This document shows, piece by piece, positions 1 through 28,307 of a stretch of 64,000 nt of DNA. Below the pieces are notes generated by a model. The model worked only from the letters and a program-made list of their open reading frames with translations, did not search any database and had not been told where the DNA came from. A program made the position numbers and the translations under genes. Source of the DNA: a virus. Each line of letters opens with the position of its first letter. Positions within the stretch are counted from its first letter, which is position 1. The stretch lies in the IMG/VR virus record IMGVR_UViG_3300042922_000707, positions 1-64,000 of that record; one strand, 5' to 3'.

Positions 1-1135
1 CACCCTCCTCCAAGGTCCAACCATTATATATTGCACTTGCTCCAATACTTTCAGCAAGCGACACAAGTATACTCATCATTGCTAAGTTTCTTGCTGGCGT
101 CCAACATACGGTGCTCTTTATGTTAGTCTTTTCAGACTTTGGTATATCTAAGTTAGGGTCTGTCAATACGCTACTTCCCAATTGCCCAAGCCACTTAATA
201 TCAATGTATTTTACTACCGCACCCAAATCATTGGCTATTGCCTGAACAGCTTCCCACTCACGCTCTGCACTCTTTTGACCCATGTCAAAAAATGCCATTA
301 CAACTTCCTTACCTTCTATCTTCTTCGCAACATAGGCACTGGTGGAACTGTCAATACCACCACTTGCACATACAAGTACTAAATTGTTATTCTTGGGTGG
401 TAAGCTGGAAATTGTCTTTGTGTGCAACTCCTCTTCCACGTGACAGAATTGTTTAAAGTTTATGTAATTGATTGTATACGGGTTGACATTTTCAATTCTA
501 TTTCTGCTAAATATATTCTCTTTGCCAAATATATCTTCAATAAACTCTCTCTCACTTGCAAAATAAAAATCATTTTTGTCTGTACCATACCAAAGCGTTT
601 TAAAGTCTTTGATTAGTACTACCTCATCTGGGTTGCCTATCTTGGCAAAAGCACATGCAAAACCCCCACTTAGAATTGGAAATACCTCATGCTTAAGTAT
701 ACTATAGCAGTCTCTAACCGTGCCGTAGGTTGTATGTCTATATAATAAGTCCAACACCAGCTCTGAGTCTAATTTCATATCCGTAAGTGAGTACTTACTA
801 CATAGCTCTTCGTCATTTGACACAACGCCATTATGAGCAAGGACATAGCCATGCTTTAATACTGGCTGTAGTGAATCCACATCAGTGCTTGCAATCTCCG
901 TCATAGGCTGTGCCCGTGCATTAAGTATTACAAAATCTCCACTGAAGTCCATATTGAAAAATGGCTCACTACCTGTTGGAAGTTCTGTACTTTTGAGCCA
1001 CTTCCCTGTCCTTACACTTACAATACCGTAACCATCCTGACCTCTAAGGCTAGTTTTTTCCATCAGTTGCACTATCTTTTTTACCTGCTCTGTGTGGTTA
1101 CCTTCTCCAAACCTAATACCTGCAATTCCGCACAT
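1..1135 (-). CDS. queC: Glutamine amidotransferase-QueC fusion (7-cyano-7-deazaguanine synthase), 3' part outside window
   Basis: The visible 378 residues join a class II glutaminase domain to a QueC domain. Cys2 directly after the initiator Met is the expected N-terminal nucleophile, and the HNGVVSN loop lies at about 101-107. This decides the start at 1135 rather than the in-frame ATG at 1144; AAGGAGG lies about 10 nt upstream. The PP-loop ATPase motif SGGIDSS is at 258-264 and the QueC motif WTPARN at 345-350. QueC converts 7-carboxy-7-deazaguanine through the amide to preQ0 using ammonia and ATP; the fused glutaminase would supply ammonia from glutamine. Such fusions are known from phages with 7-deazaguanine in DNA. 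The gene has its own promoter at 1167-1196. Asparagine synthase is a less likely reading because of the WTPARN motif. Confidence 0.93.
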   Translation of the reverse strand, partial: MCGIAGIRFGEGNHTEQVKKIVQLMEKTSLRGQDGYGIVSVRTGKWLKSTELPTGSEPFFNMDFSGDFVILNARAQPMTEIASTDVDSLQPVLKHGYVLAHNGVVSNDEELCSKYSLTDMKLDSELVLDLLYRHTTYGTVRDCYSILKHEVFPILSGGFACAFAKIGNPDEVVLIKDFKTLWYGTDKNDFYFASEREFIEDIFGKENIFSRNRIENVNPYTINYINFKQFCHVEEELHTKTISSLPPKNNNLVLVCASGGIDSSTSAYVAKKIEGKEVVMAFFDMGQKSAEREWEAVQAIANDLGAVVKYIDIKWLGQLGSSVLTDPNLDIPKSEKTNIKSTVCWTPARNLAMMSILVSLAESIGASAIYNGWTLEEG

Positions 1136-1166
1136 TAAGTTCATACCTCCTTAATTTATATAGTAC

Positions 1167-1196
1167 AGTATAAAACCAACCATAAATAATTGTAAA
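1167..1196 (-). promoter_or_regulatory. Promoter of GAT-queC
   Basis: On the minus strand TTTACA (1191-1196) is followed after 18 bp by TATACT (1167-1172) and then GTA. The box sits just upstream of the AAGGAGG of the fusion gene. The -35 box overlaps the T-tract of the preceding terminator. Confidence 0.75.
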
Positions 1197-1221
1197 ATAA
1201 AAAGCCCTGAATTAGGGCTTT
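1190..1221 (-). terminator. Rho-independent terminator after the kinase gene
   Basis: AAAGCCCT (1201-1208) pairs with AGGGCTTT (1214-1221) around a 5-nt loop. On the minus strand the stem is followed by TTATTTTA. The stem overlaps the kinase stop codon. It may also stop plus-strand transcripts, since ATTTTT follows the stem on that side. Confidence 0.8.
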
Positions 1222-1798
1222 ATTTTTGACACTCCGGTTCGTTAACTAAGTTTTCCAGCACTCTTTCCCAAGTTGACCTACTCTCAGTATTAACTGACCA
1301 AATCCTTATATTTTTATGTGTTTCAGAAAGCTCCTCCATCAACTTATAGTATTCGGATTGCTGACGGATTGATTCCTCTGTGCAGAAGTTTATATCCAAA
1401 TGTGATGCCTTATCACGATTTAATCTTTCTTGCATTACACCCAGGTTACCACAGAACAAATTAAGTATTATAACGTCATAGTCTATTTTGTCCAAGCGGT
1501 CCATCAGCCCTGCACAAACATCACTGAAGTTGTAGTTTCTATAGCCAAGTCTACAATAAACTTCCTCTGAAATAAATGTTCTGTCAAACAGCAAGTTAAC
1601 TCCTGTTCCGGAAGTGCTTTCCATATAATCCACTAAAGCACAGTACATTTTAGTGGACTTAAATTTTCCAGTTGGTGCCTTATCTCGATGTCCGCTTAGT
1701 CTATACAGATTAGTATATGGTAACTTCTCTCGGAGCCAGTTAGTAATTGTCGTCTTTCCTACGCCCTGAGGGCCTTCTACAATAATTAATTTACTCAT
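1220..1798 (-). CDS. P-loop deoxynucleotide/deoxynucleoside kinase (thymidylate-kinase-like)
   Basis: This 192-residue protein starts with a Walker A motif GPQGVGKTT at about 9-17. A FDRTF segment at mid-protein resembles the DR motif of thymidylate and deoxynucleoside kinases. The size fits this group. It is the last gene of the folE-to-kinase unit and overlaps the dUTPase gene by 4 nt (ATGA). With dUTPase and ThyX next to it, dTMP phosphorylation is the simplest role. Because the same unit carries folE and unknown enzymes, a kinase acting on a modified deoxynucleotide is an open alternative. Substrate cannot be read from the sequence. Confidence 0.75.
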   Translation of the reverse strand: MSKLIIVEGPQGVGKTTITNWLREKLPYTNLYRLSGHRDKAPTGKFKSTKMYCALVDYMESTSGTGVNLLFDRTFISEEVYCRLGYRNYNFSDVCAGLMDRLDKIDYDVIILNLFCGNLGVMQERLNRDKASHLDINFCTEESIRQQSEYYKLMEELSETHKNIRIWSVNTESRSTWERVLENLVNEPECQK

Positions 1799-2304
1799 TT
1801 TCCGGAGCTCCCTATTAAGCCTTCCATCCTTTTGGATACTTTCTTAAGCAGTGTCGAAAGGCTTACCTCTTTGCACTTCACTCGAGGAGTTTTTACCATA
1901 ACTGCCTGGCATATTGCCTTGGACATTGGGTAGTAAATTGCATTATCCATCCCTGGCAATAACTTAATTTCCTCTTGCGTAATTACTTTATCATTGTAAA
2001 ATACTGCTGGCACATTATTGCAGTTTTGAATAGGAACTAACCACTCCCCTCTGAAACCACTGTCAAATACTCCCGCCCTTTGCTGTAGACCTTTGGTGCC
2101 TGTACTGCCACGCTCTTTAAGTATAACAGCATACCTATCACTAAAAGCGGACTTTAGTCCAGTAGAGAATTTGTGGATTTGTTGGGGCTCTAGTACGAGG
2201 TATGGGTCCAGCAATATTCCATAAATATCAAGTCCAGCGTCCTCCTTTCTCTTTGTTGGAATTACCGCCAAACTATTTATTCTAGCCCAATATATCTTTG
2301 CCAT
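1795..2304 (-). CDS. dut: dUTP diphosphatase (dUTPase)
   Basis: The 169-residue protein has the trimeric dUTPase signatures: EDAGLDIY at 21-28, an RGSTGTKGL segment near 65-73 and GVFDSGFRGEW near 78-88, which contains the uracil-pocket region. It hydrolyses dUTP to dUMP, the substrate of the neighbouring ThyX, and keeps uracil out of phage DNA. AGGAGG lies 6 nt before the ATG. It overlaps the thyX end by 23 bp and the kinase start by 4 bp, so the three genes are probably translationally coupled. A related dCTP deaminase fold is less likely given the motif spacing. Confidence 0.85.
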   Translation of the reverse strand: MAKIYWARINSLAVIPTKRKEDAGLDIYGILLDPYLVLEPQQIHKFSTGLKSAFSDRYAVILKERGSTGTKGLQQRAGVFDSGFRGEWLVPIQNCNNVPAVFYNDKVITQEEIKLLPGMDNAIYYPMSKAICQAVMVKTPRVKCKEVSLSTLLKKVSKRMEGLIGSSGK

Positions 2305-3151
2305 TGTTACCCTCCTGTGCCTGCATCATTATTAAATACTGTTTGTAGCCCTCTAATACCTTAGCCTTAGTTGGCATCTTACCACAGCATTTTTTGCCCT
2401 CAATACAATAACCAAGCTGTTCGCATTTAGGTACCATATATTCCAATATTTCGGGTACGTATTTTTCCAACTCATCCTTCATCATGGATGCTATTCTTCT
2501 TATTTCCCATTGGGCTCTATTGCACAGGCGCTCGTTCATAAAGTGAATCATAGCCTGAAGTGAGAACACTGTGTTAACTCTAGTCTCACAGCCATTTGGA
2601 AGTACAAATCTAGCATCCTCGGCAGGTATGTCAAGTGCCTTTAGGTCACCATAGATAGTGTTTAGGTACTCCATTGCATCCACATAAATTACTTCTGCAA
2701 CTTTATTCTTTTTGATGCTCGGTGGGGTTATGTAATTAAAGCCATCCTCTTCCACGTATCTCTGTGAACGCTGGTTATGGTCCACACCCACACTGTGTCT
2801 AACATACTGGTGACTGAATGCCCTGCTTGCCCCTTCCACATGAAATTTAAAATGCACACTCCTTAAGGCAGACCCATGATTTGTGTCTATTACATGCTTT
2901 CCGATGTGCTTAATTCCATTTTGTGAGTCGTAGCAGATTTTTGCAAAGTCTCCTATTTGGTAAAACAGGTCCTTCAACTCATCAACATTCAAAAGTTGTA
3001 CAACTGGTTGTGACTCCCTGTCCTCACTATCCTCTTCATCAGGTATCACAGCAACCTTACATCCCTCAGCCTTATTGCTGGTGGTACAGTCTAAGCAAGA
3101 TTGACTAGCACACTTCAAAATTCCATCCTCTACCAATGTCTTTATTTTCAT
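2282..3151 (-). CDS. thyX: Flavin-dependent thymidylate synthase ThyX
   Basis: Residues 118-132 (RHSVGVDHNQRSQRY) match the ThyX signature, with Ser where the third position is usually Arg. ThyX makes dTMP from dUMP using methylene-tetrahydrofolate and FAD. At 289 residues it is longer than usual. The extra length includes a Cys-rich N-terminus (Cys14, 19, 22, 31) and a C-terminal cluster (CEQLGYC...KCC) that could bind metal. AGGAGG lies 5 nt upstream of the ATG. It sits between the radical SAM gene and dut in one unit. The altered signature residue may be tolerated; activity is inferred. Confidence 0.85.
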   Translation of the reverse strand: MKIKTLVEDGILKCASQSCLDCTTSNKAEGCKVAVIPDEEDSEDRESQPVVQLLNVDELKDLFYQIGDFAKICYDSQNGIKHIGKHVIDTNHGSALRSVHFKFHVEGASRAFSHQYVRHSVGVDHNQRSQRYVEEDGFNYITPPSIKKNKVAEVIYVDAMEYLNTIYGDLKALDIPAEDARFVLPNGCETRVNTVFSLQAMIHFMNERLCNRAQWEIRRIASMMKDELEKYVPEILEYMVPKCEQLGYCIEGKKCCGKMPTKAKVLEGYKQYLIMMQAQEGNNGKDILG

Positions 3152-3213
3152 TACTACCTCCTATTATTTTAGTGACTTGGGATAGATTTATTCCACCCCA
3201 AGCCATCTTTGGT

Positions 3214-4221
3214 TTATTTATTAAGTTGCTCTTTAAAAATCTTATCCAAATCCATAAAGTGGTTTGCTGTGTCATTCCACTGTTCGGATAAGTATGGGTA
3301 GGACCAGAAACAGCCCGGGCACTCTTCTCTATCCTTGTGCCATGCCGCAAGGAATTCTTCTAAATTGTCTTGGAAGTTGAATACATTAAACTTACAAATG
3401 TTCTCTCCCTTTCTATACCCGCACACTCTGAAAGAGCCATCCGCATCAATTGTGAGTATTTCATCTTTGGTACAATGCCAATTCAAATTGTCCAAGTATC
3501 TAAATAGGTCCGCGAACCAGTTTGCATTGTTCTGTATATTAACTTCCTTGTCATTCTTCATTCTAAGAAGTTCTTTCAACTGCTCTTTCAATGCAAGTTT
3601 ATCTTCTTCATCCAGTATGTACTCGGATAACTCACCCTTTGGCGGGAAGAAGTCATATTTACCATCCTGGTCCCAATGGATAACATTGAGCCCAACTGTC
3701 AGACCAAACTGACTAACATACTTAACAATGTCAACAAGGTTTCTGCAATTCATTTTGTGTACAGTTATTATACCCAAAAGTTCTTCGACACCTTTTTCCT
3801 TCATGGCAAGTAAGTTTTCCAATCCCTGCCATCCCTTATCTTTTATATCACCCTTATACTCAGTATCTATGTTAACTAAATCTATTGGTATGCTGAAGTT
3901 CTTTAGTCCAGCGTTTACAACATCGTCACAGTACTGTTCAAACAACTCCTTAGGAGCGGAACTGTAGATTCCATAGTTGTAATCCTTAATGCCTTCAATA
4001 ATCTTAGGCAGTTCTTCCTTAAGCATAAAGGGCTCATTGCCTAAAATTAAGTTAAACTCTACACCAGCATCTTTAAGTATCTTAAATGCACTTAGCCACT
4101 GCTCTGTAGTTAACTCTGGTCCTTGTAACTTGCTGTCGCGTATTCTACAATACTCACATCTTCTTGGGCATTTCTTTGTCAAGTATACGCAACTTAATGG
4201 AAATTTTATATCCTTATTCAT
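3214..4221 (-). CDS. Radical SAM protein with SPASM-like C-terminal Cys cluster
   Basis: The 335-residue protein has the radical SAM motif CPRRCEYC at about 18-25 (CxxxCxxC, first 4Fe-4S cluster). Its C-terminal part (about 245-320) carries spaced cysteines in WHC, RVCGY, NICKF and ECPGC, as in SPASM or twitch domains that hold extra clusters. The start codon overlaps the SDR stop (TAATG). No close functional subgroup is recognisable. It is not QueE, which is encoded separately at 6578-7219. Its place between an SDR and thyX in the folE unit suggests a modification of a nucleotide, a deazapurine or a peptide. That is inference only. Confidence 0.8.
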   Translation of the reverse strand: MNKDIKFPLSCVYLTKKCPRRCEYCRIRDSKLQGPELTTEQWLSAFKILKDAGVEFNLILGNEPFMLKEELPKIIEGIKDYNYGIYSSAPKELFEQYCDDVVNAGLKNFSIPIDLVNIDTEYKGDIKDKGWQGLENLLAMKEKGVEELLGIITVHKMNCRNLVDIVKYVSQFGLTVGLNVIHWDQDGKYDFFPPKGELSEYILDEEDKLALKEQLKELLRMKNDKEVNIQNNANWFADLFRYLDNLNWHCTKDEILTIDADGSFRVCGYRKGENICKFNVFNFQDNLEEFLAAWHKDREECPGCFWSYPYLSEQWNDTANHFMDLDKIFKEQLNK

Positions 4222-4925
4222 TACTTCCTCACCTGTCCTCCATCAATTATTATATTGGAGCCTGTCATAAATGGGCTGTCCAATATCATTTTAACAACTG
4301 GTACTATCTCTTCTGGCCGTGCCTCTCTTTTTTGTGGTACCTGTGCATCCAAAAGTTCCTGTGGTGCGTCCCCTGGTACTAAGTTTGTGTTGAAGTAGCC
4401 AGGGCTTATGCAGTTTATCCTCACCAATTCCGGCTTAAACGTACACAATCCTTCAGTTAGTGCTATTATGCCTGCCTTTGCCGCCGCATATAATGGAGTC
4501 TCGCTGTCCGCCTTTACACCGCAACATGACGCAATACTTATTATGTTCAACTTACAGCAGTCATCCATTGCACCCTGTATAAAATGTTTAGTCACAAGAT
4601 AGTGTGTCATTAAATTGACATCCAAAATATTAAATTCCTGTTTCAGGTCATACAGTAAAAAACTATCCTCTAGTGGCATGTAGCCTGCACAGTTTAAAAG
4701 CAAGTCACATCTAACCACGCCTTCCTTCACTAATTGGTCCACTACAGAAGCTGGGCTTTTATAGTCTACTTTTATGTGATGCACCGTTACTCCATCCGCT
4801 TCAATATTTAAGTAAGGCTTACTTCTACCTATACAATAGATTGTGTCATTGTATTGAATAATACCCTCTATTATAGCTTTACCTAACCCACTTGAGGCTC
4901 CGCTGATAACAATTACTCTGCCCAT
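4221..4925 (-). CDS. Short-chain dehydrogenase/reductase (SDR)
   Basis: The classical SDR features are present in 234 residues: glycine-rich NAD(P) motif SGASSGLG at about 8-15, an NCAG motif near 78-81, an ISIASCCG catalytic-serine segment, and YAAAK (Tyr-x3-Lys). The length is typical. GAGGAGG lies 7 nt before the ATG. It overlaps the 52-residue ORF upstream and the radical SAM gene downstream by single-base TAATG junctions. SDRs are uncommon in phage replication regions. Substrate is unknown; a sugar-nucleotide, pterin (made by FolE) or modified-base intermediate are all possible. Confidence 0.85.
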   Translation of the reverse strand: MGRVIVISGASSGLGKAIIEGIIQYNDTIYCIGRSKPYLNIEADGVTVHHIKVDYKSPASVVDQLVKEGVVRCDLLLNCAGYMPLEDSFLLYDLKQEFNILDVNLMTHYLVTKHFIQGAMDDCCKLNIISIASCCGVKADSETPLYAAAKAGIIALTEGLCTFKPELVRINCISPGYFNTNLVPGDAPQELLDAQVPQKREARPEEIVPVVKMILDSPFMTGSNIIIDGGQVRK

Positions 4926-5083
4926 TAAATTTCCTCCTCTAAAAGTTGCGTGTCAATAAATTTTAATATTTTCTGTATACATGCGTGGTGCTCGACATAT
5001 TCCGGGCATGTAGGGCTTGGTATATCCTCACCCCACACTAACTCCCTCAATGCTATAATTTTATTTCTTAACTGCTCATCCAT
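4925..5083 (-). CDS. Small protein of 52 residues, unknown
   Basis: This short frame fills the gap between the SDR and the 190-residue gene with a 1-nt gap upstream (TAATATG) and a TAATG overlap downstream, which suggests coupled translation; no strong Shine-Dalgarno is seen. The sequence is acidic with a mid-segment TCPEYVEHHAC containing two Cys and two His, a possible metal site, followed by a predicted helix. It is adjacent to the SDR-radical SAM pair, so a substrate peptide or small partner protein are possibilities, but there is no direct evidence for either. Confidence 0.6.
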   Translation of the reverse strand: MDEQLRNKIIALRELVWGEDIPSPTCPEYVEHHACIQKILKFIDTQLLEEEI

Positions 5084-5084
5084 A

Positions 5085-5657
5085 TTATCTATCCATGAAT
5101 TCTATGGTGTCAATTTTCCACACCTTATGCACTTTTCCACTTAGGTCCTCACAGATAGCACCAAAGTCAATACCTTCATCCTCTTCCATTCTACCCTCTT
5201 GGAACCACTGATGGAAATAACCTTCATGCTGTTCTTCATGCATATAAAATGCACCATTGTCTGGCTTACATCTTCTTTCAACAAGTGTAAATTTGCATCT
5301 TCTCAGTCCTGCACTCGCCTTGTCCAGTAAGTAATACATTTCTTGCTTAACATCAAAGTCTCTTAAAACTTCGTCTGTCACCACTGTATGCCCACTACCA
5401 AATAAACTGCTCGTTGCAGTTACCATAACTCCCTTAAAGTCCATACAGGCACTTAAGTAGTTAACAATCTCATTTACAAACTCTTCTATTGAGCCCGGCC
5501 ATTTCCATTCCATTATGTCCTTTTTAATCTGTTCCAAATCTGGAACATCATTTTTGCACAGCATGCCAACGCCAATAGTTAGTTCATCATGGGCATATTT
5601 AATATTACCTATGGTTACAACTCCCGGGTATGCTCCAACGAATTTAATCATGTTCAT
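5085..5657 (-). CDS. Conserved-looking hypothetical protein, 190 residues
   Basis: No family is recognised. The C-terminal part (GICEDLSG-like segment ending IDTIEFMDR) has the beta-strand pattern common at the ends of small phage proteins, and a His-rich stretch HEEQHEGYFHQWF lies before it. The start ATG overlaps the folE stop (TAATG), with AAGGAG just inside the folE end; a second ATG two codons on is also possible. It is co-transcribed with folE, the SDR, the radical SAM protein and thyX, so a role in that metabolic unit is likely by context alone. Confidence 0.7.
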   Translation of the reverse strand: MNMIKFVGAYPGVVTIGNIKYAHDELTIGVGMLCKNDVPDLEQIKKDIMEWKWPGSIEEFVNEIVNYLSACMDFKGVMVTATSSLFGSGHTVVTDEVLRDFDVKQEMYYLLDKASAGLRRCKFTLVERRCKPDNGAFYMHEEQHEGYFHQWFQEGRMEEDEGIDFGAICEDLSGKVHKVWKIDTIEFMDR

Positions 5658-6232
5658 TATCTCCTTATCATTGATAAAAACTCCTGTCTAATTGCAGGGT
5701 CAGTTAAGAATGTTCCTCTCATTTCATTAGTGACAGTTATTGTACCTGGCTTTTTAACACCCCTCACTGTCATACACATGTGCTCTGCCTCTATTATAAC
5801 CGCACAGCCCTCAGCATCCAGTACTTCCATTATTGCATCCGCAATTTGACCAGTCAGTCTTTCTTGTATCTGTGGTCTCTTTGCATAGCCCTCTAGAAGT
5901 CTAGCAAGCTTACTTAAGCCAACAACTTTGCCATTTGGTATGTAACCTATGTGAGCAATGCCGTGGAATGGAACAAAGTGATGCTCGCAAAATGAATTAA
6001 ACGGTATCTTAGTTTCGATTACCATTGCACTTGTGGCTCCTTCGCTAAAGCCCTTCTGTAAATGTATTCTTGGGTCTTCTTTAAGCCCACTAAAGAACTC
6101 ACTATAAGCTCTTGCAAATCTTTCCGGTGTTTCTACCAACCCCTCTCTATTGGGGTCTTCGCCAATTGCTTCCAATATCTGCTTAAATGAACTGGCTACA
6201 ATTTCTTCTGCTGGTGTTAATTTTCTACCCAT
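5657..6232 (-). CDS. folE: GTP cyclohydrolase I
   Basis: FolE opens GTP to dihydroneopterin triphosphate, the first step of the 7-deazaguanine pathway and of folate. The 191 residues match the usual length, with zinc ligands Cys82, His85 (FCEHH) and Cys153 (EHMCMT) all in place and the PFHG motif after the first pair. The ATG at 6232 is chosen over the longer frame because AAGGAGG sits about 7 nt upstream and the protein then begins as the family does. It heads the unit that runs to the kinase, driven by the promoter at 6264-6293. Confidence 0.95.
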
Positions 6233-6263
6233 ACTAGCCTCCTTAAAATTAATTTTGCAATAC

Positions 6264-6293
6264 AGTATAAAATGAATCAAGTAAAAATGTAAA
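6264..6293 (-). promoter_or_regulatory. Promoter of the folE unit
   Basis: Minus strand TTTACA (6288-6293), 18 bp, TATACT (6264-6269), then GTA. It directly follows the terminator of the queD-queE unit and precedes the folE ribosome binding site. Confidence 0.75.
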
Positions 6294-6332
6294 ATAAAAT
6301 TAAAAGACTCACTTTGATTTATGTGAGTCCTT
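6294..6332 (-). terminator. Terminator of the queD-queE-77aa unit
   Basis: GACTCAC (6306-6312) pairs with GTGAGTC (6323-6329), extended by flanking A-T pairs. On the minus strand the stem is followed by TTTTAATTTTATTTT, which runs into the -35 box of the folE promoter. Confidence 0.75.
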
Positions 6333-6339
6333 AATTTAA

Positions 6340-6573
6340 TCAATTAAGTGTGCCCTTTTTGTACTCCTCTAGCTGTCTTCCTAGAAAGTCATTAATTCCT
6401 TCGTAAAGTGCATTTCTTCTCTCCAGACTACTAATTTCAATTTCACATAGAAACAACTGGTTTTCCAAGTGTATTATCCTATAGTGGCTAAATAGTCCGA
6501 AAACTATGTGGAATACTAGACTTAGTGCTAACAGCGAAAGCAAAATGAATTTTTCATTTTTAGTCTTCCACAT
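6340..6573 (-). CDS. Small single-pass membrane protein, 77 residues
   Basis: One hydrophobic segment (about residues 9-30, [19 protein letters not shown]) follows a short basic N-terminus; the rest is a charged, coiled-coil-like helix. The topology suggests a short cytoplasmic N-terminus with an outside tail, or the reverse. The start follows queE by 4 nt, with GAGGGG overlapping the queE stop, so it is translated from the queD-queE message. No family is recognised. It resembles accessory membrane proteins such as spanin-like or superinfection-exclusion factors only in general layout. Confidence 0.6.
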
Positions 6574-6577
6574 GCCA

Positions 6578-7219
6578 TTATACCCCTCGCTCTTCCGGTG
6601 GCCATATAAATTTATGTATCTGTAATTGCATTCTGCAGTTATTCAATTTGTTCTCCAGAATAAATTCAACAATTCTTTTTGGCTCAATTTTTCCAAACAC
6701 AGGGCTAAAGAATACTTGGCAATTTGGCTTACAATTAATTATAAGCTGTTTTGCATCCAAGAGGTCTAATTCACTTCCACATACAAATTTAAGAGCGTCC
6801 TTACTCTGCAGTATATCCAAGTTGCTTAGTTGCATACAAGGTGACATAAGACTGCTTGGAGTCTTCCAGTCCATTGTTATGCACAGTGATGGATGGTTAG
6901 GAAGTTCTGATATATCACATGAGCCATTCGTCTCTATTTCAACTTCAAATCCATCCCCCAACAGTATTGTACAAAGTGAAATTAAGTCAGCACCCTGTAA
7001 TAAGGGTTCACCACCTGTAATTGTTACACGTTGTACATTACTTGCCAATACCAGGTCAAGCACCTCTGGAATAGACATTTCCTTTCCACCCTCATAGCTG
7101 TATGAGGTATCACAATAAGAACATCTCAAATTACATCCAACAAATCTTAGAAACAGTACCGGGTATCCTTGGTATCTACCCTCACCATTCACACTAACAA
7201 AGTGTTCCAAAAGTTTCAT
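6578..7219 (-). CDS. queE: 7-carboxy-7-deazaguanine synthase (radical SAM)
   Basis: QueE converts carboxy-tetrahydropterin to 7-carboxy-7-deazaguanine. The radical SAM motif CNLRCSYCD (Cys29, 33, 36) follows the family hallmark FLRFVGCN, the N-terminus EHFVSVNGEG fits, and the ITGGEPL SAM-binding motif is present near residue 68. Length (213) is normal. GGAGGAGG precedes the ATG. It lies 17 bp after queD in the same unit and so supplies the step between QueD and QueC. Confidence 0.95.
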   Translation of the reverse strand: MKLLEHFVSVNGEGRYQGYPVLFLRFVGCNLRCSYCDTSYSYEGGKEMSIPEVLDLVLASNVQRVTITGGEPLLQGADLISLCTILLGDGFEVEIETNGSCDISELPNHPSLCITMDWKTPSSLMSPCMQLSNLDILQSKDALKFVCGSELDLLDAKQLIINCKPNCQVFFSPVFGKIEPKRIVEFILENKLNNCRMQLQIHKFIWPPEERGV

Positions 7220-7236
7220 TTATTTCCTCCTCCATT

Positions 7237-7683
7237 CTAGGAATATGGGCACATAGCCTTATGTACCATCTTTCTTGTCAATGTTGCATAACTGTTCCTA
7301 GTTTCCCAAAGTTTAATTTCCTCCAACGCCACATGTGCTGGAAGTTCTTCTTGTATCGTCACCCACAAATATCTTATCATATTCTCACAGGTAGTATTGA
7401 AATCAAAGTAATTATTTAGATAATTGTGGTCCAATGGCTCTATAACTTCATTTACTATGCCTTTCAATTCCTTAAAGTCAATTAGAAGTCCATCTCTTCC
7501 GGGTTTGCCCTCTATCGTTACTTCCATATGATAACTATGTCCATGTGAGTGTTCACATTTACCCTCGTATGGTACCAAGTGGTGCCCCGCCTCAAAATCA
7601 AATTCTTTTGTTAATCTAACAGGGACGTTTTCCATTATTTCTGGGATTCCTTTACATCCCTCAACTCTTGTTTTAACTAGCAT
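7237..7683 (-). CDS. queD: 6-carboxy-tetrahydropterin synthase
   Basis: QueD converts dihydroneopterin triphosphate to carboxy-tetrahydropterin. The zinc and catalytic residues are visible: FEAGHHL (31-36), catalytic Cys43 in CEHSHGHSY (43-51), LDHNYLN and the late WET motif. Length is 148. AAGGAGG lies 10 nt upstream of the ATG. It is the first gene of the queD-queE-77aa unit under the promoter at 7711-7740. Confidence 0.94.
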   Translation of the reverse strand: MLVKTRVEGCKGIPEIMENVPVRLTKEFDFEAGHHLVPYEGKCEHSHGHSYHMEVTIEGKPGRDGLLIDFKELKGIVNEVIEPLDHNYLNNYFDFNTTCENMIRYLWVTIQEELPAHVALEEIKLWETRNSYATLTRKMVHKAMCPYS

Positions 7684-7710
7684 GTCTAATGTACCTCCTT
7701 TTTATATTAC

Positions 7711-7740
7711 AGTATAAAACCAATCACACTATTTTGTAAA
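7711..7740 (-). promoter_or_regulatory. Promoter of the queD unit
   Basis: Minus strand TTTACA (7735-7740), 18 bp, TATACT (7711-7716), then GTA. It is placed directly upstream of the queD ribosome binding site. Confidence 0.75.
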
Positions 7741-10466: not shown

Positions 10467-11348
10467 TTACATTATATACAGTATAAAGCTGTATACGATT
10501 TTGTCATTACATTTCCCGGTCTTGATTTTAAAGTCCAAATCAAAGAGCTTATCTATAATTTGCACCAATGCGTGAGTACTATAATGCTTGGACATTTTCA
10601 TGCAGTTGTTGACAATAAATTTAGGTATCTTTGTTATCTTTACAATCTCATCAGCACCTCTGCCCTGTTCCATCATACTCTTTACAGCCAACACTTTTCT
10701 GTATTGTGTATAGAGCAATGATAGAAGCTTAACATTATTCTCATTCAACTTGTGATAAATATAGATTGCCTTTTCTGCTTCCTTATTACAAATTGCGTCA
10801 ATCATATCAAAAACTTTAAAATTATCCGGTATATGGCAAACTGTCTCAATATGCTCTTCAGTTATTTTATCCTGTGTGTAATTATTAAGCTTGGCAATGT
10901 TGTTCTTTAAATCGGACAAATTATTCTCACTAACTGCCACAAGAAGTTCTGCAGTTGCTTTGGTTATTTTTAAATTACTTTGTGTATACGCTACGAGCTC
11001 CCCCGCTGTAAGTTGCTTAAACTCCACTAATTCTACCCCTATAGGAAGGTTGGAGCACTTACTTGTTATTACTATTAAGTAGTTAACGGTGGGTTTAATG
11101 ACCTTTATAAGCTCCGAAACAAAGGAAGGGTTGTCAACTACTATAATAGTTCTTTTCCTAAACAGCCCACGGTTAAGGATTAGCTTCTGTATGTTGTTTA
11201 CATCATACTCTTCAAACCTTAGCACTTCCGAATCCGTCTTATCCTGCAATACTTTAATGCAGTTCTTCATCATTTCTCTCTCTTCTCCGGCAAAGACAAA
11301 GTAGTTTCCATTACTACCTTTATTCACACTCGCAAGAAATTTATTCAT
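10467..11348 (-). CDS. holA: Clamp-loader subunit, DNA polymerase III delta-like
   Basis: The 293-residue protein has the layout of delta: a degenerate AAA+ domain beginning NYFVFAGEEREMMKNCIKVL, an ENNLSDLKNNIAKLNNY helix segment that in this family follows the collar linker (E-N-x-L-x2-L-x2-E/N-I-x-K-L), and a C-terminal all-helical collar. Delta opens the sliding clamp. The ATG overlaps the delta-prime stop by one base. Together with the next two clamp-loader genes this is a complete bacterial-type set, rare in phages. Confidence 0.8.
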   Translation of the reverse strand: MNKFLASVNKGSNGNYFVFAGEEREMMKNCIKVLQDKTDSEVLRFEEYDVNNIQKLILNRGLFRKRTIIVVDNPSFVSELIKVIKPTVNYLIVITSKCSNLPIGVELVEFKQLTAGELVAYTQSNLKITKATAELLVAVSENNLSDLKNNIAKLNNYTQDKITEEHIETVCHIPDNFKVFDMIDAICNKEAEKAIYIYHKLNENNVKLLSLLYTQYRKVLAVKSMMEQGRGADEIVKITKIPKFIVNNCMKMSKHYSTHALVQIIDKLFDLDFKIKTGKCNDKIVYSFILYIM

Positions 11349-12202
11349 TAAATCACCCCTCTCAACCTGAGCATCAATGTGTCCACAAACATTGTGAAGT
11401 TAACAGGAACACCCATCTTTCTCTTATAGGAGTCCAGTATTTTAACATTTCTATATGCCTGTTCGGGTGTTATATCGAACTCCTTGTACTTGTCCAAAAG
11501 TGCAATGTCTGTTATAAACTCCTCAGCACCTATTTTTACAAAGTGCAAATCCGTGTATATAACTATCATGGTGTCCAGTAGCAAGCTTAAGTTTTCCTCA
11601 ATGGGCTTCACATGCTCAATAATGTTAAATATGTTTCCAACAGACGTCTTTGGCAAATTGAATATAATTTTAGTGGCAATATTTCTAACATCCACGAACA
11701 GCTTACCCGCTATCCTATCTACAGTCCCAAGAACTCCCTTACAGTAGTTTTGTAGCATTCTATACTTTTTGATGTTAGGATAATTCAATTTTACATACTC
11801 TTCAATCTCGTCGTCTGTATATAGCTTCATTTTAAATAGGTTACACCTACTCTTAATGGTGGTAAGCACCTTACTTGGGTCCTCACACAGTATTAAAAAT
11901 CTTACATGTTCCGGGCATTCCTCCAGTACTTTAAGCAGTGCATTTTGACTCTGGACTGTTAAATTATCCGCATTCCTGATTATGTACTCTTGAGAGCTCA
12001 TATTAACAACCTGCTCTAGTATCTGTCTAATCTGGTCAACCTTTATCTTTTCCACGCCATCCCCAATTACAGTTGAGGATGGGTAGCATTCCAAGGCAAG
12101 GGTTAACTTTCCCATGCCCTTCTTACCCACAACAATGCATGGTTTATCATTATTCAGAACCAGTTGTTTCATTTCCGACTGACCTATCAATTTCTGTCCC
12201 AC
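11348..12202 (-). CDS. holB: Clamp-loader subunit, DNA polymerase III delta-prime-like
   Basis: A P-loop GKKGMGK lies at about 27-33, a sensor/SRC region at TTIKSRCNLFKM, and the hallmark segment QNALLKVLEECPEH is clearly that of delta-prime/DnaX proteins. Unlike many delta-prime proteins the P-loop looks intact. The zinc-binding cysteines of cellular delta-prime are not seen. The likely start is a GTG with weak AAAGG upstream, inside the end of the preceding 60-residue gene, so translation is probably coupled to it. Partners are the delta-like and DnaX-like proteins encoded on either side. Confidence 0.85.
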   Translation of the reverse strand: MGQKLIGQSEMKQLVLNNDKPCIVVGKKGMGKLTLALECYPSSTVIGDGVEKIKVDQIRQILEQVVNMSSQEYIIRNADNLTVQSQNALLKVLEECPEHVRFLILCEDPSKVLTTIKSRCNLFKMKLYTDDEIEEYVKLNYPNIKKYRMLQNYCKGVLGTVDRIAGKLFVDVRNIATKIIFNLPKTSVGNIFNIIEHVKPIEENLSLLLDTMIVIYTDLHFVKIGAEEFITDIALLDKYKEFDITPEQAYRNVKILDSYKRKMGVPVNFTMFVDTLMLRLRGVI

Positions 12203-12332
12203 CTTTCTTATTAAAGTAATACATAGGAGCGGAACTGTGTCCCCTCGTGTAACTATATGGTAACTTCACACCAGGTGGTAGACTAAACATCCAACCCAGC
12301 ATACTTACCAATTTCTTAAATATGGATTTCAT
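12150..12332 (-). CDS. Small basic protein, 60 residues, unknown
   Basis: The frame begins with an ATG about 12 nt after GGAGG (a further ATG 9 nt upstream is too close to it). It encodes a short amphipathic N-terminus (IFKKLVSMLGWMFSL) and a polar tail, and its end overlaps the delta-prime start by 53 bp. The overlap and good ribosome binding site suggest that it is translated, perhaps to feed ribosomes into holB. No family recognised. Confidence 0.5.
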   Translation of the reverse strand: MKSIFKKLVSMLGWMFSLPPGVKLPYSYTRGHSSAPMYYFNKKGGTEIDRSVGNETTGSE

Positions 12333-12352
12333 TCCTCGCATCCCTCCACAAA

Positions 12353-12568
12353 TTACTCTTTTTTACTCCACTGTATGATACCCCACACGTTTAATCCAGT
12401 ATAGAATATATACATAGCCAATTGAGCATAATCTCTTCTAATAATGCTATAGAATACCCAAATTAGCCCCGCTATCATCCAAATCCACATGCCCCATAAT
12501 CTTTTGTATATGACGCCCACATTTCCAATTATACTACCAATTGTGGCAACCCAAGACATAAACAACAT
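12353..12568 (-). CDS. Small three-helix membrane protein, PnuC/SemiSWEET-like in pattern
   Basis: The 71 residues form about three hydrophobic segments (4-20, 24-43, 48-66) rich in Trp, ending NVWGIIQWSKKE. The pattern resembles half of a PnuC-type nicotinamide riboside transporter or a SemiSWEET-like unit, and full PnuC genes are known in phages. As a dimer it could transport or bind a nucleoside or nicotinamide precursor. The start overlaps the dnaX stop (TAATG). Identity is uncertain. Confidence 0.6.
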   Translation of the reverse strand: MLFMSWVATIGSIIGNVGVIYKRLWGMWIWMIAGLIWVFYSIIRRDYAQLAMYIFYTGLNVWGIIQWSKKE

Positions 12569-13593
12569 TAATTTCTCCCCAGTCCTAATTTAAGTAACTC
12601 ATTTTGTATTAAAAGATATTCATTGTCACTGTATCGTAATTCTGTGTCTAGCTCCTGCAAAGCCTCCAGAAATTTGAAGTCTACAATAGTTGAGTGCCTT
12701 TTAATGTCCACCAAGTTCTCGGGACTAGAATTGATATAGTCAAGCGACTCCTCACCCAGTTTACTATAAATCAAACAATCGTTGCAGTAGTTAAACAAGT
12801 CCTTTATAAATTGTCTCATATCCACACCACTGTAATAAATTGACTTCAACTGCTTAAGTAACTCTGGTGGATTGCTTATATTATTCATAACACCCAAAAT
12901 GGTATCCATGCCAACACTACCCAATATTTTAAGTATATCAGAATATGTTATACCTTCCTTATAGTTCCTAACCTGGTCAAATATACTAATAGCATCCCTC
13001 ATACTACCCTTGCCCATTTTAGCAATGTACATAAGAGCAGTATCTTCCATTTCGATACCCTCTTGTCCGGCAATGTACTTTACACGCCCAAATAGGTCCT
13101 TAACGTCAAAACGTTGTAAATCAAAGCGTTGGCATCTGGAGAGTATAGTCGCTGGAATCTTCTGTGGGTCTGTCGTACATAACATGAATATTATATGTGC
13201 GGGTGGCTCTTCCAAAGTCTTCAACAGGGCGTTAAATGCTCCTGTACTCAACATATGAACCTCGTCTATTATGTAAATCTTAAACTTACCCTTGCTTGGT
13301 CTGTGATTAACTTCCTGCCTTATATTTCTAATGTTCTCGACGCCGTTATTAGATGCTCCATCTATCTCAATTATGTTCATGTCAAGTTCCTGGCGTGTAA
13401 GAACTCCGTCCTCATTTACCATTCTAGCTAGGATTCTAGCCGTAGTAGTTTTACCTATTCCACGTGTTCCTGTGAATAAATAGGAGTGACTTATTTCATC
13501 ATTCTTAATTTGATTTTGCAGTATAATTTTAACATGGTCCTGTCCACAAACGTCCTCAAATACTTGAGGTCTATATTTCTGATATAAACTCAT
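12568..13593 (-). CDS. dnaX: Clamp-loader ATPase, DnaX (tau/gamma)-like
   Basis: The product begins with the DnaX hallmark SLYQKYRPQ.F.DV.GQDH, has Walker A GTRGIGKTT at 42-50, Walker B IIDEVHML, and the arginine-finger segment ATILSRCQRF. At 341 residues it is gamma-sized, without the long tau tail. The four-cysteine zinc module between Walker A and B of cellular DnaX is absent, as if trimmed. The ATG at 13593 has AGGAGGAAGAGG upstream; longer in-frame starts are rejected. It works with the delta and delta-prime proteins encoded just downstream to load a clamp that is not encoded in this window. Confidence 0.92.
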   Translation of the reverse strand: MSLYQKYRPQVFEDVCGQDHVKIILQNQIKNDEISHSYLFTGTRGIGKTTTARILARMVNEDGVLTRQELDMNIIEIDGASNNGVENIRNIRQEVNHRPSKGKFKIYIIDEVHMLSTGAFNALLKTLEEPPAHIIFMLCTTDPQKIPATILSRCQRFDLQRFDVKDLFGRVKYIAGQEGIEMEDTALMYIAKMGKGSMRDAISIFDQVRNYKEGITYSDILKILGSVGMDTILGVMNNISNPPELLKQLKSIYYSGVDMRQFIKDLFNYCNDCLIYSKLGEESLDYINSSPENLVDIKRHSTIVDFKFLEALQELDTELRYSDNEYLLIQNELLKLGLGRN

Positions 13594-13855
13594 TAGCCTC
13601 TTCCTCCTGCTGTGCAAATTTCTTAAATGGGCCGTCAAATGAAAAATCCGATAATTTGTGGTTTAGTAATTTTTCTCTTGCCTCATATTTATCCTTCAAA
13701 GTGCTTACTAAAATTTTAACAGGTAGACGTTTATCCAGTGATGCACCATTTTCCCAATTACTTCCCCTCAATGACGCTAAGCCTTTTTCAATCTCTTCAA
13801 TGTCCCTATCCAGTTGCCCAAACTCTTCAAGTATCTGTTTTACAGTTATATCCAT
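13571..13855 (-). CDS. Small coiled-coil protein, 94 residues, unknown
   Basis: The sequence is strongly charged and predicted mostly helical (DRDIEEIEKGLASL... KYEAREKLLNHKL). Its end overlaps the dnaX start by 23 bp, so it probably belongs to the clamp-loader unit. GGAGG precedes the ATG. No family recognised; a clamp-loader or polymerase accessory is possible by position only. Confidence 0.65.
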   Translation of the reverse strand: MDITVKQILEEFGQLDRDIEEIEKGLASLRGSNWENGASLDKRLPVKILVSTLKDKYEAREKLLNHKLSDFSFDGPFKKFAQQEEEANEFISEI

Positions 13856-13968: not shown

Positions 13969-16389
13969 TTATGCAAACACGCTCTCTTCATACTCATCCT
14001 GCACTTCCGACTCTTCTTCACCCAAATCATCATCCAATTCCTCAAGAATTAGTTTTTCATTGTCCTCTCCAACTTCTTCATGCCCTTCCCAATGATATAC
14101 TGGTCCATACCATTGCTCACTTACTTCAGCATCTACTTTTATAACTATACCGCCTCTTTCAATAAGTCTACTACATGCGTCAATCATGCACTGCTTAATA
14201 ATTGGTATAGCCTCTACCAAGTTAGCTTTTGGTATGGAAGTAATAACCTCGTCATGCACTGTAGATATAAGAGTAACATCCAATTCTCTCAGTCGCCTAT
14301 TGGCATATATGAATGCCATGGCTCTTTTAGTTATCTCAGCACTGGAGCCCTGCATTATAGAGTTTACACACTGTCTCTCAGCATCTGAGCGTATCCATGC
14401 ACGGCTGTCCTGCAAATCCGGAAGTCTTCTTTTTGTATGGTACAGCATTTCCACGTATCCTTTTTCATATGCGGAGTCCAGCACGCTTTGAGTGAACTCT
14501 TTAATTGCAGGAAAGGTGTCAAAGTATCGCTCAATCTCTCGTTTAGCCTCTGTCTCAGTACAATCCAGTCCCTCTGCAAGTCCAACCTCAGTCATACCAT
14601 AGTTAAGTCCAAGGACTATTGCCTTAACCTTACCTCTCCATGGGCTTTTATACCCTGTGTCGTCATTGTCCAAGTACTCCTGTTCTGGGTGCCCGGGAAA
14701 GAATAATACTGCCTGTTGTACATACACATCCTTGGCATTCCTATATGCGTCAAGCATCGTCTCATCTCCGGACAGTACAGCTAGAATACGTGGCTCTATT
14801 TGTGAGTAGTCAGTGGAGCATAGGACATTTCCTTCCTCTGCAATAAAGCAACGTCGTATCTTCTTACCAAAGTCAACCTTAACTTCCTGCCCCTCTATTA
14901 ATAATTTCTTTGACTTAGAAGGGATATTTTGTAGATTAGGGTCGGAACTTGAAAACCGGTTGGTAACTGCCTTATAGGGGTTAAAGGAAGTATGAACTCT
15001 TCCGTCAACTGGACTAATAGCCTCCAACAGACCATCACAGTAAGTTCCTATCATTTTCTTAACTGTTCTATATGCTAAAATGCTTTTGCATACTGAAAAT
15101 TGTTTAGCGAGCCTTTGCATAACCTTCTCGTTTGTAGCCTTGCCGTCCTTCTTAGTAGTTGGCCAACCCCATATTGAGAAAAATAAGTCACCTAACTGTG
15201 GGGGGCTGTTTATGTTCAACCCAGGTATAAAAGATGTCCTTAAAGTGTTCCTGTCAAATACCTTAGCCTTACCATTCTTTGTGCTAGGCGGAACATTAAC
15301 AACCTGCACATGGGGATTATCGTCCAGGAATTTATCCATCAATTCCTGCAATTGGGTTTTTATTGTCTTCTCAATGGCAACCTTGTACCCCTCAAATTCT
15401 TCCTTGTTTGCATTTACTCTATCCACGTCAAGTAACATACCTCTACGCTCTGCCGCAATTACTGATGGCAAAACCTGTAACTGTATTACATAGTAGGACT
15501 CAGCAAGACCGGGTCTCTTCTTTATGTGGCTTTCCGCAAACTCCATCCATTCCCAATGAAGTATGGCATCTTTGCATGCATAATAGCCAACCATCCATAT
15601 TGGAAAGTATGCACATGGCGTCTTTTCAAATATCTCATCAAATTTGTCCAATGGATTTTGTTGGTACTGTTTGAGCCACTTATTACACAAGGGCTTCAAT
15701 TTATTTACTGGCTCATTTTCATTTAATACCCTTGATGCTAAATATCCCTCAAACGCAATATCTGGCATTTCAATGCCCAGATTTATCCAAACTACATGGC
15801 TGTCAAACTTACCATTGAATGTTACAACACCACAGTATTCATCGGACATGTCTATGTCGTCAATACTGTTTAGAGTTCGCATACTGTACGCAAGAGATTC
15901 TTCTCTTTTCTTTCTCATAACAGGTGCCATATTTTCTTTTATAAATTCCACAGGTAATTGCTTACCCTCCACAGGCTCTATACAGTCAAGGTGATGTATC
16001 GGTATATACCAGGCATTACCATCACATGGCGTATAAAAAGATATGCCTACTATGTTGTCGCCATGCCATATCTTTAGACCCATAGTCTCTGTATCGTATG
16101 AAAATCTTCTGCACTCCTCAATAGAGCGAAGTAGTCTATCCAACTTCTCGTCCGTGTCCACTATTATGTAATTGCTGGGCCACTCTGAAAGTACGTTTGG
16201 GTGCTTTTTCTTAAACTCATCCACAAGTATGGAAACCGTTTGTTTTATCTTACCAATACTTTTTCCAGCTCCGGACTTCTTAACAGTCCTTTTCTCAGTC
16301 ATGGAGGATATAATTTTATTTATTTCTTTAGGATTTATTACATCCCTCTTTAGATTATTATCAACACCAAAAAGTAAATTACGTTTCAA
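13969..16389 (-). CDS. polA: DNA polymerase family A with 3'-5' exonuclease
   Basis: The phage replicative polymerase is 806 residues. The exonuclease domain is intact: YDTET (Asp99, Glu101), FNGKFD and YYACKDA. Polymerase motif A is STDYSQIEPR (Asp527), motif B has Arg585, Lys589, Leu593 and Tyr597, and motif C is VHDE (712-714). There is no 5'-nuclease domain. Leu593 is at the position of E. coli Phe762; Leu there is known in viral polymerases and is linked to slower, more accurate synthesis. The start appears to be TTG with AAAGGATGG upstream, 3 bp after a 29-residue ORF. The C-terminus is very acidic. Confidence 0.96.
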   Translation of the reverse strand: MKRNLLFGVDNNLKRDVINPKEINKIISSMTEKRTVKKSGAGKSIGKIKQTVSILVDEFKKKHPNVLSEWPSNYIIVDTDEKLDRLLRSIEECRRFSYDTETMGLKIWHGDNIVGISFYTPCDGNAWYIPIHHLDCIEPVEGKQLPVEFIKENMAPVMRKKREESLAYSMRTLNSIDDIDMSDEYCGVVTFNGKFDSHVVWINLGIEMPDIAFEGYLASRVLNENEPVNKLKPLCNKWLKQYQQNPLDKFDEIFEKTPCAYFPIWMVGYYACKDAILHWEWMEFAESHIKKRPGLAESYYVIQLQVLPSVIAAERRGMLLDVDRVNANKEEFEGYKVAIEKTIKTQLQELMDKFLDDNPHVQVVNVPPSTKNGKAKVFDRNTLRTSFIPGLNINSPPQLGDLFFSIWGWPTTKKDGKATNEKVMQRLAKQFSVCKSILAYRTVKKMIGTYCDGLLEAISPVDGRVHTSFNPYKAVTNRFSSSDPNLQNIPSKSKKLLIEGQEVKVDFGKKIRRCFIAEEGNVLCSTDYSQIEPRILAVLSGDETMLDAYRNAKDVYVQQAVLFFPGHPEQEYLDNDDTGYKSPWRGKVKAIVLGLNYGMTEVGLAEGLDCTETEAKREIERYFDTFPAIKEFTQSVLDSAYEKGYVEMLYHTKRRLPDLQDSRAWIRSDAERQCVNSIMQGSSAEITKRAMAFIYANRRLRELDVTLISTVHDEVITSIPKANLVEAIPIIKQCMIDACSRLIERGGIVIKVDAEVSEQWYGPVYHWEGHEEVGEDNEKLILEELDDDLGEEESEVQDEYEESVFA

Positions 16390-28261: not shown

Positions 28262-28277
28262 GCCACCTCCTTTATAC

Positions 28278-28307
28278 AGTATAAAACCTGTCAGCCTAAA
28301 GTGTAAA
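28278..28307 (-). promoter_or_regulatory. Promoter of the SNF2 helicase gene
   Basis: Minus strand TTTACA (28302-28307), 18 bp, TATACT (28278-28283), then GTA. Confidence 0.75.

Follow-up and report, generated by a model that had tools for sequence, protein, structure and literature searches.

The known 7-deazaguanines of phage DNA have small 7-substituents; they include dPreQ0, dPreQ1, dADG and dG+ (PMC6884629). The exchange performed by DpdA modifies the genome at the nucleic-acid level, and some phages modify the base further (PMC12783734). In the dG+ system of phage 9g and the Queuovirinae, the genes are compactly arranged in the order queE, gat-queC, queD, folE, dpdA; Gat-QueC and DpdA of 9g lead to dG+ in plasmid DNA in Escherichia coli, where the host supplies the earlier steps, and in phage CAjan dpdA is essential for modification (PMC6884629). 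Here we analysed the first 64,000 bases (the window) of the 76,232-base viral record IMGVR_UViG_3300042922_000707, and in particular positions 1–7740, where minus-strand genes for FolE, QueD, QueE and a glutaminase–QueC fusion (Gat-QueC) are found together with genes for a radical SAM enzyme (rSAM) and a short-chain dehydrogenase (SDR). With a probability of roughly 60%, we consider this interval to contain the greater part of a DpdA-type phage island for 7-deazaguanine modification of DNA, with dpdA located in an assembly gap and with previously undescribed candidate tailoring enzymes.

Phages 9g and CAjan serve as models for the shared part of the pathway. Like the Queuovirinae, the window phage encodes FolE, QueD, QueE and a Gat-QueC of the same architecture (26–29% identity, active-site residues kept). 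In contrast to their compact cluster, the window displays three promoters, genes for ThyX, dUTPase and a kinase in between and no DpdA in the record, while no rSAM/SDR pair of the window's family was detected in the Queuovirinae stretches fetched. The Streptococcus phage Dp-1, which carries dPreQ1 and has a Gram-positive host, shares with the window the preQ0 genes and a family-A polymerase (about 30% identical), but it has a QueF/QueF-L homologue and DpdA, and no rSAM/SDR is reported there (PMC6884629). A further group, described in 2019, comprises 48 phages that have preQ0 genes but lack DpdA, along with Campylobacter phages that have dADG (PMC6884629); a preQ0 set without DpdA is therefore not new by itself. 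The window resembles this group in that no DpdA is recognised in its record, although this absence coincides with an assembly break and membership can thus not be claimed. Finally, FolE, SDR and rSAM lie close together with QueC or Gat-QueC in uncultured viral islands (L100, L102, L107, L111, L114, L127, L135, L144 and others), which differ from the window record by the presence of DpdA, of a clamp near DpdA in most of them, and of a PIG-L-like and a GT4-like protein in one branch.

The FolE, QueD, QueE and Gat-QueC genes were confirmed by family hidden Markov model (HMM) matches at the coordinates assigned to them in an earlier note, which had been made on this DNA from its letters alone. All features of the interval given here are on the minus strand. 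FolE (GTP cyclohydrolase I, 5657–6232) matches PF01227 with an E value of 9e-73 and TIGR00063 over its cut-off, and QueD (6-carboxytetrahydropterin synthase, 7237–7683) scores 93 bits with TIGR03367, also over the cut-off, and has the CxxxHGH motif. QueE (7-carboxy-7-deazaguanine synthase, 6578–7219) matches phrog_2076 (PHROG QueE, E 3e-37) and is nearest to the Clostridia-type model TIGR03963, where its 244.6 bits fall just short of the curated cut-off of 260.1 bits; this hints at a Clostridia-like host. The 5' part of gat-queC (2–1135), which encodes a class-II glutaminase and the first half of QueC, matches PF06508 (1.6e-24, model positions 3–124 of 210), GATase_6/7 and phrog_10428 (1e-31). 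The first 378 residues of the protein are in the record, and the nucleophile Cys directly follows the ATG at 1135, an N-terminal-Cys glutaminase fused to QueC being the Gat-QueC architecture. When aligned to six phage Gat-QueC proteins it displays the conserved Cys1, SGGxDS, PARN and LEE, whereas its MGQKSAE takes the place of the YxQxHxxE motif, from which other phage Gat-QueC proteins also depart. The motifs described for QueC are SGGxDS, VPxRN, YPDC and C(x)8CxxCxxC (PMC13329287); here SGGIDS and TPARN are present, and YPDC and the Cys motifs would fall beyond the contig end. The pathway had been called complete and its motifs intact in the earlier note, which was not confirmed for QueC, as the record ends inside the gene before the YPDC equivalent and the zinc-binding Cys residues. 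Its more general proposal of a phage pathway for 7-deazaguanine DNA modification is supported.

The gat-queC gene runs off base 1 of the record. A sister contig of 75,238 bases, with a Gat-QueC protein 98% identical and DNA about 92% identical over the first 11 kb, stops at the same base inside gat-queC, and the right end is common to the two contigs as well. At each of both ends (window 1–127 and the end of the record) the two strains share an identical run of exactly 127 bases, the longest identical run in the 11 kb compared being 185 bases. In metagenome assembly 127 is a standard k-mer length, and two contigs that start from one graph node have exactly k bases in common. The runs at both ends are most naturally read as marks of a k=127 assembly-graph break: each strain was cut at nodes that could not be resolved, so that both lack the sequence joining the right end to the left. 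Connecting the left end of the record directly to its right end would continue gat-queC into a short non-QueC tail, which also shows that sequence is missing. We rejected a physical genome terminus at position 1, since it would cut gat-queC and since the identical runs measure exactly 127 bases at both ends. When the viral collection was scanned with each end sequence for bridging contigs, the sister contig was the sole return. Such runs of exactly 127 bases, shared by two strains at both contig ends, can help to recognise a k=127 assembly break in IMG/VR records of the class 'linear'.

An iterated phage-DpdA profile had no match in the window or in the last 16 kb of the record, a search with a 14-sequence alignment had none in either whole record (window phage and sister), and the motif DSG[AG][FYW][ST] does not occur in the window, in the last 16 kb or in the sister-strain stretches fetched. 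For DpdA, the search that the earlier note had called for was thus run over the whole record and gave no match. Its observation that DpdA is not visible holds for all 76 kb with a broad phage-DpdA profile; yet this is not evidence of a DpdA-free route, because the record is broken exactly beside gat-queC, and DpdA is probably encoded in the unassembled stretch there. The Pfam model PF01702 (TGT) was discarded as a test for DpdA, since it matches 2 of 44 Gat-QueC contigs and misses known DpdA phages such as JenP1.

The gene content of relatives points in the same direction. By profile, 61 of the 79 other Gat-QueC contigs carry DpdA (55 with the first profile, 2 with the 14-sequence alignment and 4 later, two of these being weak matches). 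In the six cultured Gat-QueC phages checked, the queE, gat-queC, queD, folE cluster is kept and a transglycosylase-type gene, annotated as such in five and profile-detected in all six, comes shortly after folE. The closest Gat-QueC relative outside the species (L018, 40% identity) has the order rSAM, Gat-QueC, DpdA with overlapping ends; its rSAM homologue (31% identity, 127 bits) directly precedes gat-queC, whose end overlaps DpdA. Besides, no beta clamp was found in the window phage or its sister, despite clamp-loader-type genes at 10467–13638 (delta-like, delta'-like and gamma/tau-like) alongside a family-A polymerase at 13969–16389. As the clamp adjoins DpdA in most relatives, both may reside in the gap. 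A Gat-QueC is also encoded at 5986–7446 of L019, a 201-kb contig with no DpdA by profile and no recognised que neighbours within 6 kb.

The earlier note had suggested that a nearby kinase could serve a nucleotide-level route. Worked out as a DpdA-independent alternative, the phage kinase would help to make a modified dGTP, to be used by the phage family-A polymerase. In its favour, PMC6884629 reports a proposal of this kind for Campylobacter phages, a PolA and a kinase are encoded by the phage itself, and no DpdA was detected in the 76 kb. However, the gene at 1220–1798 encodes a thymidylate-kinase-like P-loop kinase (phrog_761, E 4.9e-13), and it adjoins the genes for a dUTPase (1795–2304; PF00692 1e-5, phrog_135 1e-20) and for ThyX, the flavin-dependent thymidylate synthase (2282–3151; PF02511 1e-44, TIGR02170 over cut-off). 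Because the kinase is thymidylate-kinase-like and encoded with ThyX and dUTPase, the three fit an ordinary set for deoxythymidine triphosphate supply, the kinase is not evidently part of the modification, and nothing points to its being a 7-deaza-dGMP kinase. With a record broken beside gat-queC, and with DpdA present in the relatives, both in the Gat-QueC contigs counted above (61/79) and in the rSAM islands described below (20/21), the nucleotide-level route appears very improbable. Also against this route, Cui et al. reportedly found, in 2023, a transglycosylase in every phage with this modification, among them a DpdA3 type responsible for complete replacement.

The most informative genes of the interval, overlooked in the earlier note, encode the rSAM and the SDR and sit between folE and the ThyX gene. 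The rSAM (3214–4221; PF04055 1e-12) is a radical SAM/twitch-type enzyme: it displays the CxxxCxxC core (C18-C22-C25) and, in keeping with the CX9-15GX4C...CxxC motif of radical SAM SPASM/twitch proteins, an auxiliary-cluster pattern C250-x11-G262-x4-C267 plus C301-x2-C304 that is kept in most of the family. Its predicted model, with a predicted local distance difference test score (pLDDT) of 84, resembles MoaA, PqqE, SkfB, viperin, SuiB and BlsE, and the template modelling (TM) scores reach 0.63 among the matches listed, bar one of 0.68 normalised by a viperin-like target; such a model places the fold, not the substrate. Assignments to MoaA, PqqE, viperin or other families were rejected, no curated cut-off being passed. 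The SDR (4221–4925; PF00106 4e-24), of a subfamily found beside this rSAM, keeps the glycine-rich loop and the Ser, Tyr and Lys residues.

The rSAM alignments were used, with no que gene, to search the viral collection and a prokaryote genome collection. This yielded 12 independent loci outside the window species, including L018 and one Halanaerobiales metagenome-assembled-genome contig; DpdA lies within about 8 kb in all 12, and FolE is present in 11. A search with the SDR added nine independent loci, with rSAM in every one and DpdA in eight. Altogether, DpdA accompanies 20 and the SDR 16 of the 21 independent rSAM loci known besides the window species. Strong SDR matches outside the species (at least 205 bits), some of them from near-identical contigs of one virus, all lie beside rSAM, and five weak matches (at most 139 bits) come from loci that have no rSAM and no que genes. 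Pairwise identity among the rSAM sequences falls to 19%, so that they do not represent one recent lineage. Among 50,697 deposited phage records no full rSAM match was obtained (one partial, E 8e-4), and there was none among 72,556 plasmids. The rSAM and SDR belong to a putative modification cassette that is also seen in about 20 other uncultured viruses.

This linkage bears on two further explanations. The rSAM and SDR might stand outside the base pathway, the SDR being a pterin reductase beside FolE and QueD in a tetrahydrobiopterin-like route, or both enzymes making a cofactor. SDRs do act on pterins in the biopterin route, the SDR gene directly follows folE in several loci, and the rSAM is distantly MoaA-like; but the pair goes together with DpdA and QueC, most of these loci also contain genes for QueE or for QueC/Gat-QueC, and the weak SDR loci, which lack que genes, do not show the pair, so that we find this explanation unlikely. 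Alternatively, the phage could rely on a host DpdA or only boost queuosine in host tRNA, in which case its enzymes would leave its own DNA unmodified. Both options have been offered for phages with preQ0 genes and no DpdA (PMC6884629), and with a QueE of Clostridia type the genes may derive from a host queuosine pathway. Gat-QueC, in contrast, is the form known from phage DNA modification and not the stand-alone QueC of hosts, and the rSAM is found almost exclusively together with viral DpdA, which makes either dependence on the host improbable.

Several observations weigh against a DpdA-type island with a tailoring pair. No DpdA is visible in either strain, five Gat-QueC contigs of more than 40 kb have no detectable DpdA, and one of the 21 rSAM contigs (L139) has none in 62 kb. 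The missing segment may also be small, because two strains that share no identical run above 185 bases in the 11 kb compared would both need to carry, identical or unresolvable, 1 kb of DpdA sequence and the 3' end of QueC. Moreover, in the window the ThyX, dUTPase and kinase genes sit between rSAM and gat-queC, the structural neighbours of the rSAM act on many substrates, and the substrates of rSAM and SDR are putative.

Two layouts are met repeatedly among the other rSAM loci. In the first (L107, L114, L115, L127, L136 and others), genes for FolE, SDR, rSAM, a QueC-related protein, a 126-aa protein, a PIG-L-like deacetylase, a GT4-like glycosyltransferase, DpdA, the clamp and PolA follow one another, with variations. 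The second (L100, L102, L111, L144) has a phosphoribosyltransferase–FolE fusion, rSAM, SDR, Gat-QueC or QueC, a second QueC-like gene, the clamp, DpdA and PolA. The deacetylase and glycosyltransferase calls are weak: they come from motifs and from profile matches in the PDB, to diacetylchitobiose deacetylases for the former (E 0.004) and to a group-1 glycosyltransferase for the latter (E 0.003), and the single sequences have no Pfam match. Neither the deacetylase and the glycosyltransferase nor the 126-aa protein and the second QueC-like gene were detected in the window or the last 16 kb of the record. As to the fusion, it is encoded at 6970–7992 of L100 (by Pfam) and, by similarity, at 7024–7992 of L102 and 4782–5699 of L106, while the second, divergent QueC-like gene stands beside QueC or Gat-QueC at 11541–12242 of L100, 11342–12073 of L102 and 4178–4882 of L018. 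After folE, the window carries a gene for a 190-aa orphan (5085–5657), which in Pfam, PHROG and TIGR searches matches only phrog_11000, a PHROG of unknown function. Its best PDB matches are QueF-like archaeosine synthase (QueF-L, E 0.03) and GTP cyclohydrolase I, and because the predicted model is poor (pLDDT 50), a T-fold enzyme of the GTP cyclohydrolase/QueF type is only a lead. The 126-aa protein of the other loci, which aligns weakly to FolE, shows no more than weak similarity to this orphan (hhalign probability 38%).

In the DpdA-type island that we favour, FolE, QueD and QueE would convert GTP to 7-carboxy-7-deazaguanine, and Gat-QueC, with its own glutaminase, would carry this to the amide, nitrile (preQ0) or amidine level. 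DpdA, most likely from the gap, would then exchange guanines in the phage DNA for the modified base, and the rSAM and SDR, perhaps with the 190-aa possible T-fold protein, would act as a tailoring pair that changes the 7-substituent before or after insertion. The data presented here establish the gene identities, the assembly break and the linkage of rSAM and SDR with DpdA; from these we infer the place of DpdA in the gap and the order of the steps as well as the tailoring chemistry, its product and its timing. In the related branch, the deacetylase and glycosyltransferase suggest a final glycosylation of the product. By analogy with phages 9g and CAjan, the modified DNA would resist host restriction. 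We give about even odds to the proposal that the rSAM–SDR pair, with the possible T-fold protein and, in one branch, the PIG-L-like and GT4-like enzymes, builds an undescribed hypermodified, possibly amino-sugar-bearing 7-deazaguanine in viral DNA. An rSAM–SDR(–deacetylase–glycosyltransferase) cassette with DpdA was not found in the open-access literature searched, so it may already have been described in a subscription journal. A few more phage 7-deazaguanines were reported in 2023. From the conserved cassette, in which two to five additional enzymes are linked to DpdA across about 20 diverse uncultured viruses but not among deposited phages, we predict larger hypermodifications of guanine, which the present targets of mass spectrometry would fail to detect. 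The analysis names the genes to test and corrects a tempting case for a DpdA-free route.

The three near-identical promoters that had been pointed out upstream of the pathway units are borne out: a SigA-type promoter, TTTACA-N18-TATACTGTA, occurs four times in the window versus 0 expected by chance, with copies for the gat-queC (1164–1196), folE (6261–6293) and queD–queE (7708–7740) units. The fourth copy (28275–28307) lies ahead of an SNF2 helicase gene, so that this is a promoter type of the phage and not specific to the pathway. After the kinase gene, an intrinsic-terminator-like hairpin (1201–1221) separates it from gat-queC. Two small open reading frames complete the interval, one of 52 aa (4925–5083) and one for a 77-aa protein with an N-terminal hydrophobic stretch (6340–6573); neither an Rfam element nor a tRNA was found in the window. 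Finally, outside the window, a stretch of about 450 bases (L002 14480–14931, record G000:74479–74930) contains 17 perfect DnaA boxes (TTATCCACA), most of which share one orientation and many of which are spaced by about 20 bases; it lies close to the right contig end, in 2.4 kb of non-coding DNA. The stretch is kept in the sister strain with 14 perfect boxes, and it could function as an origin or as a DnaA sink.

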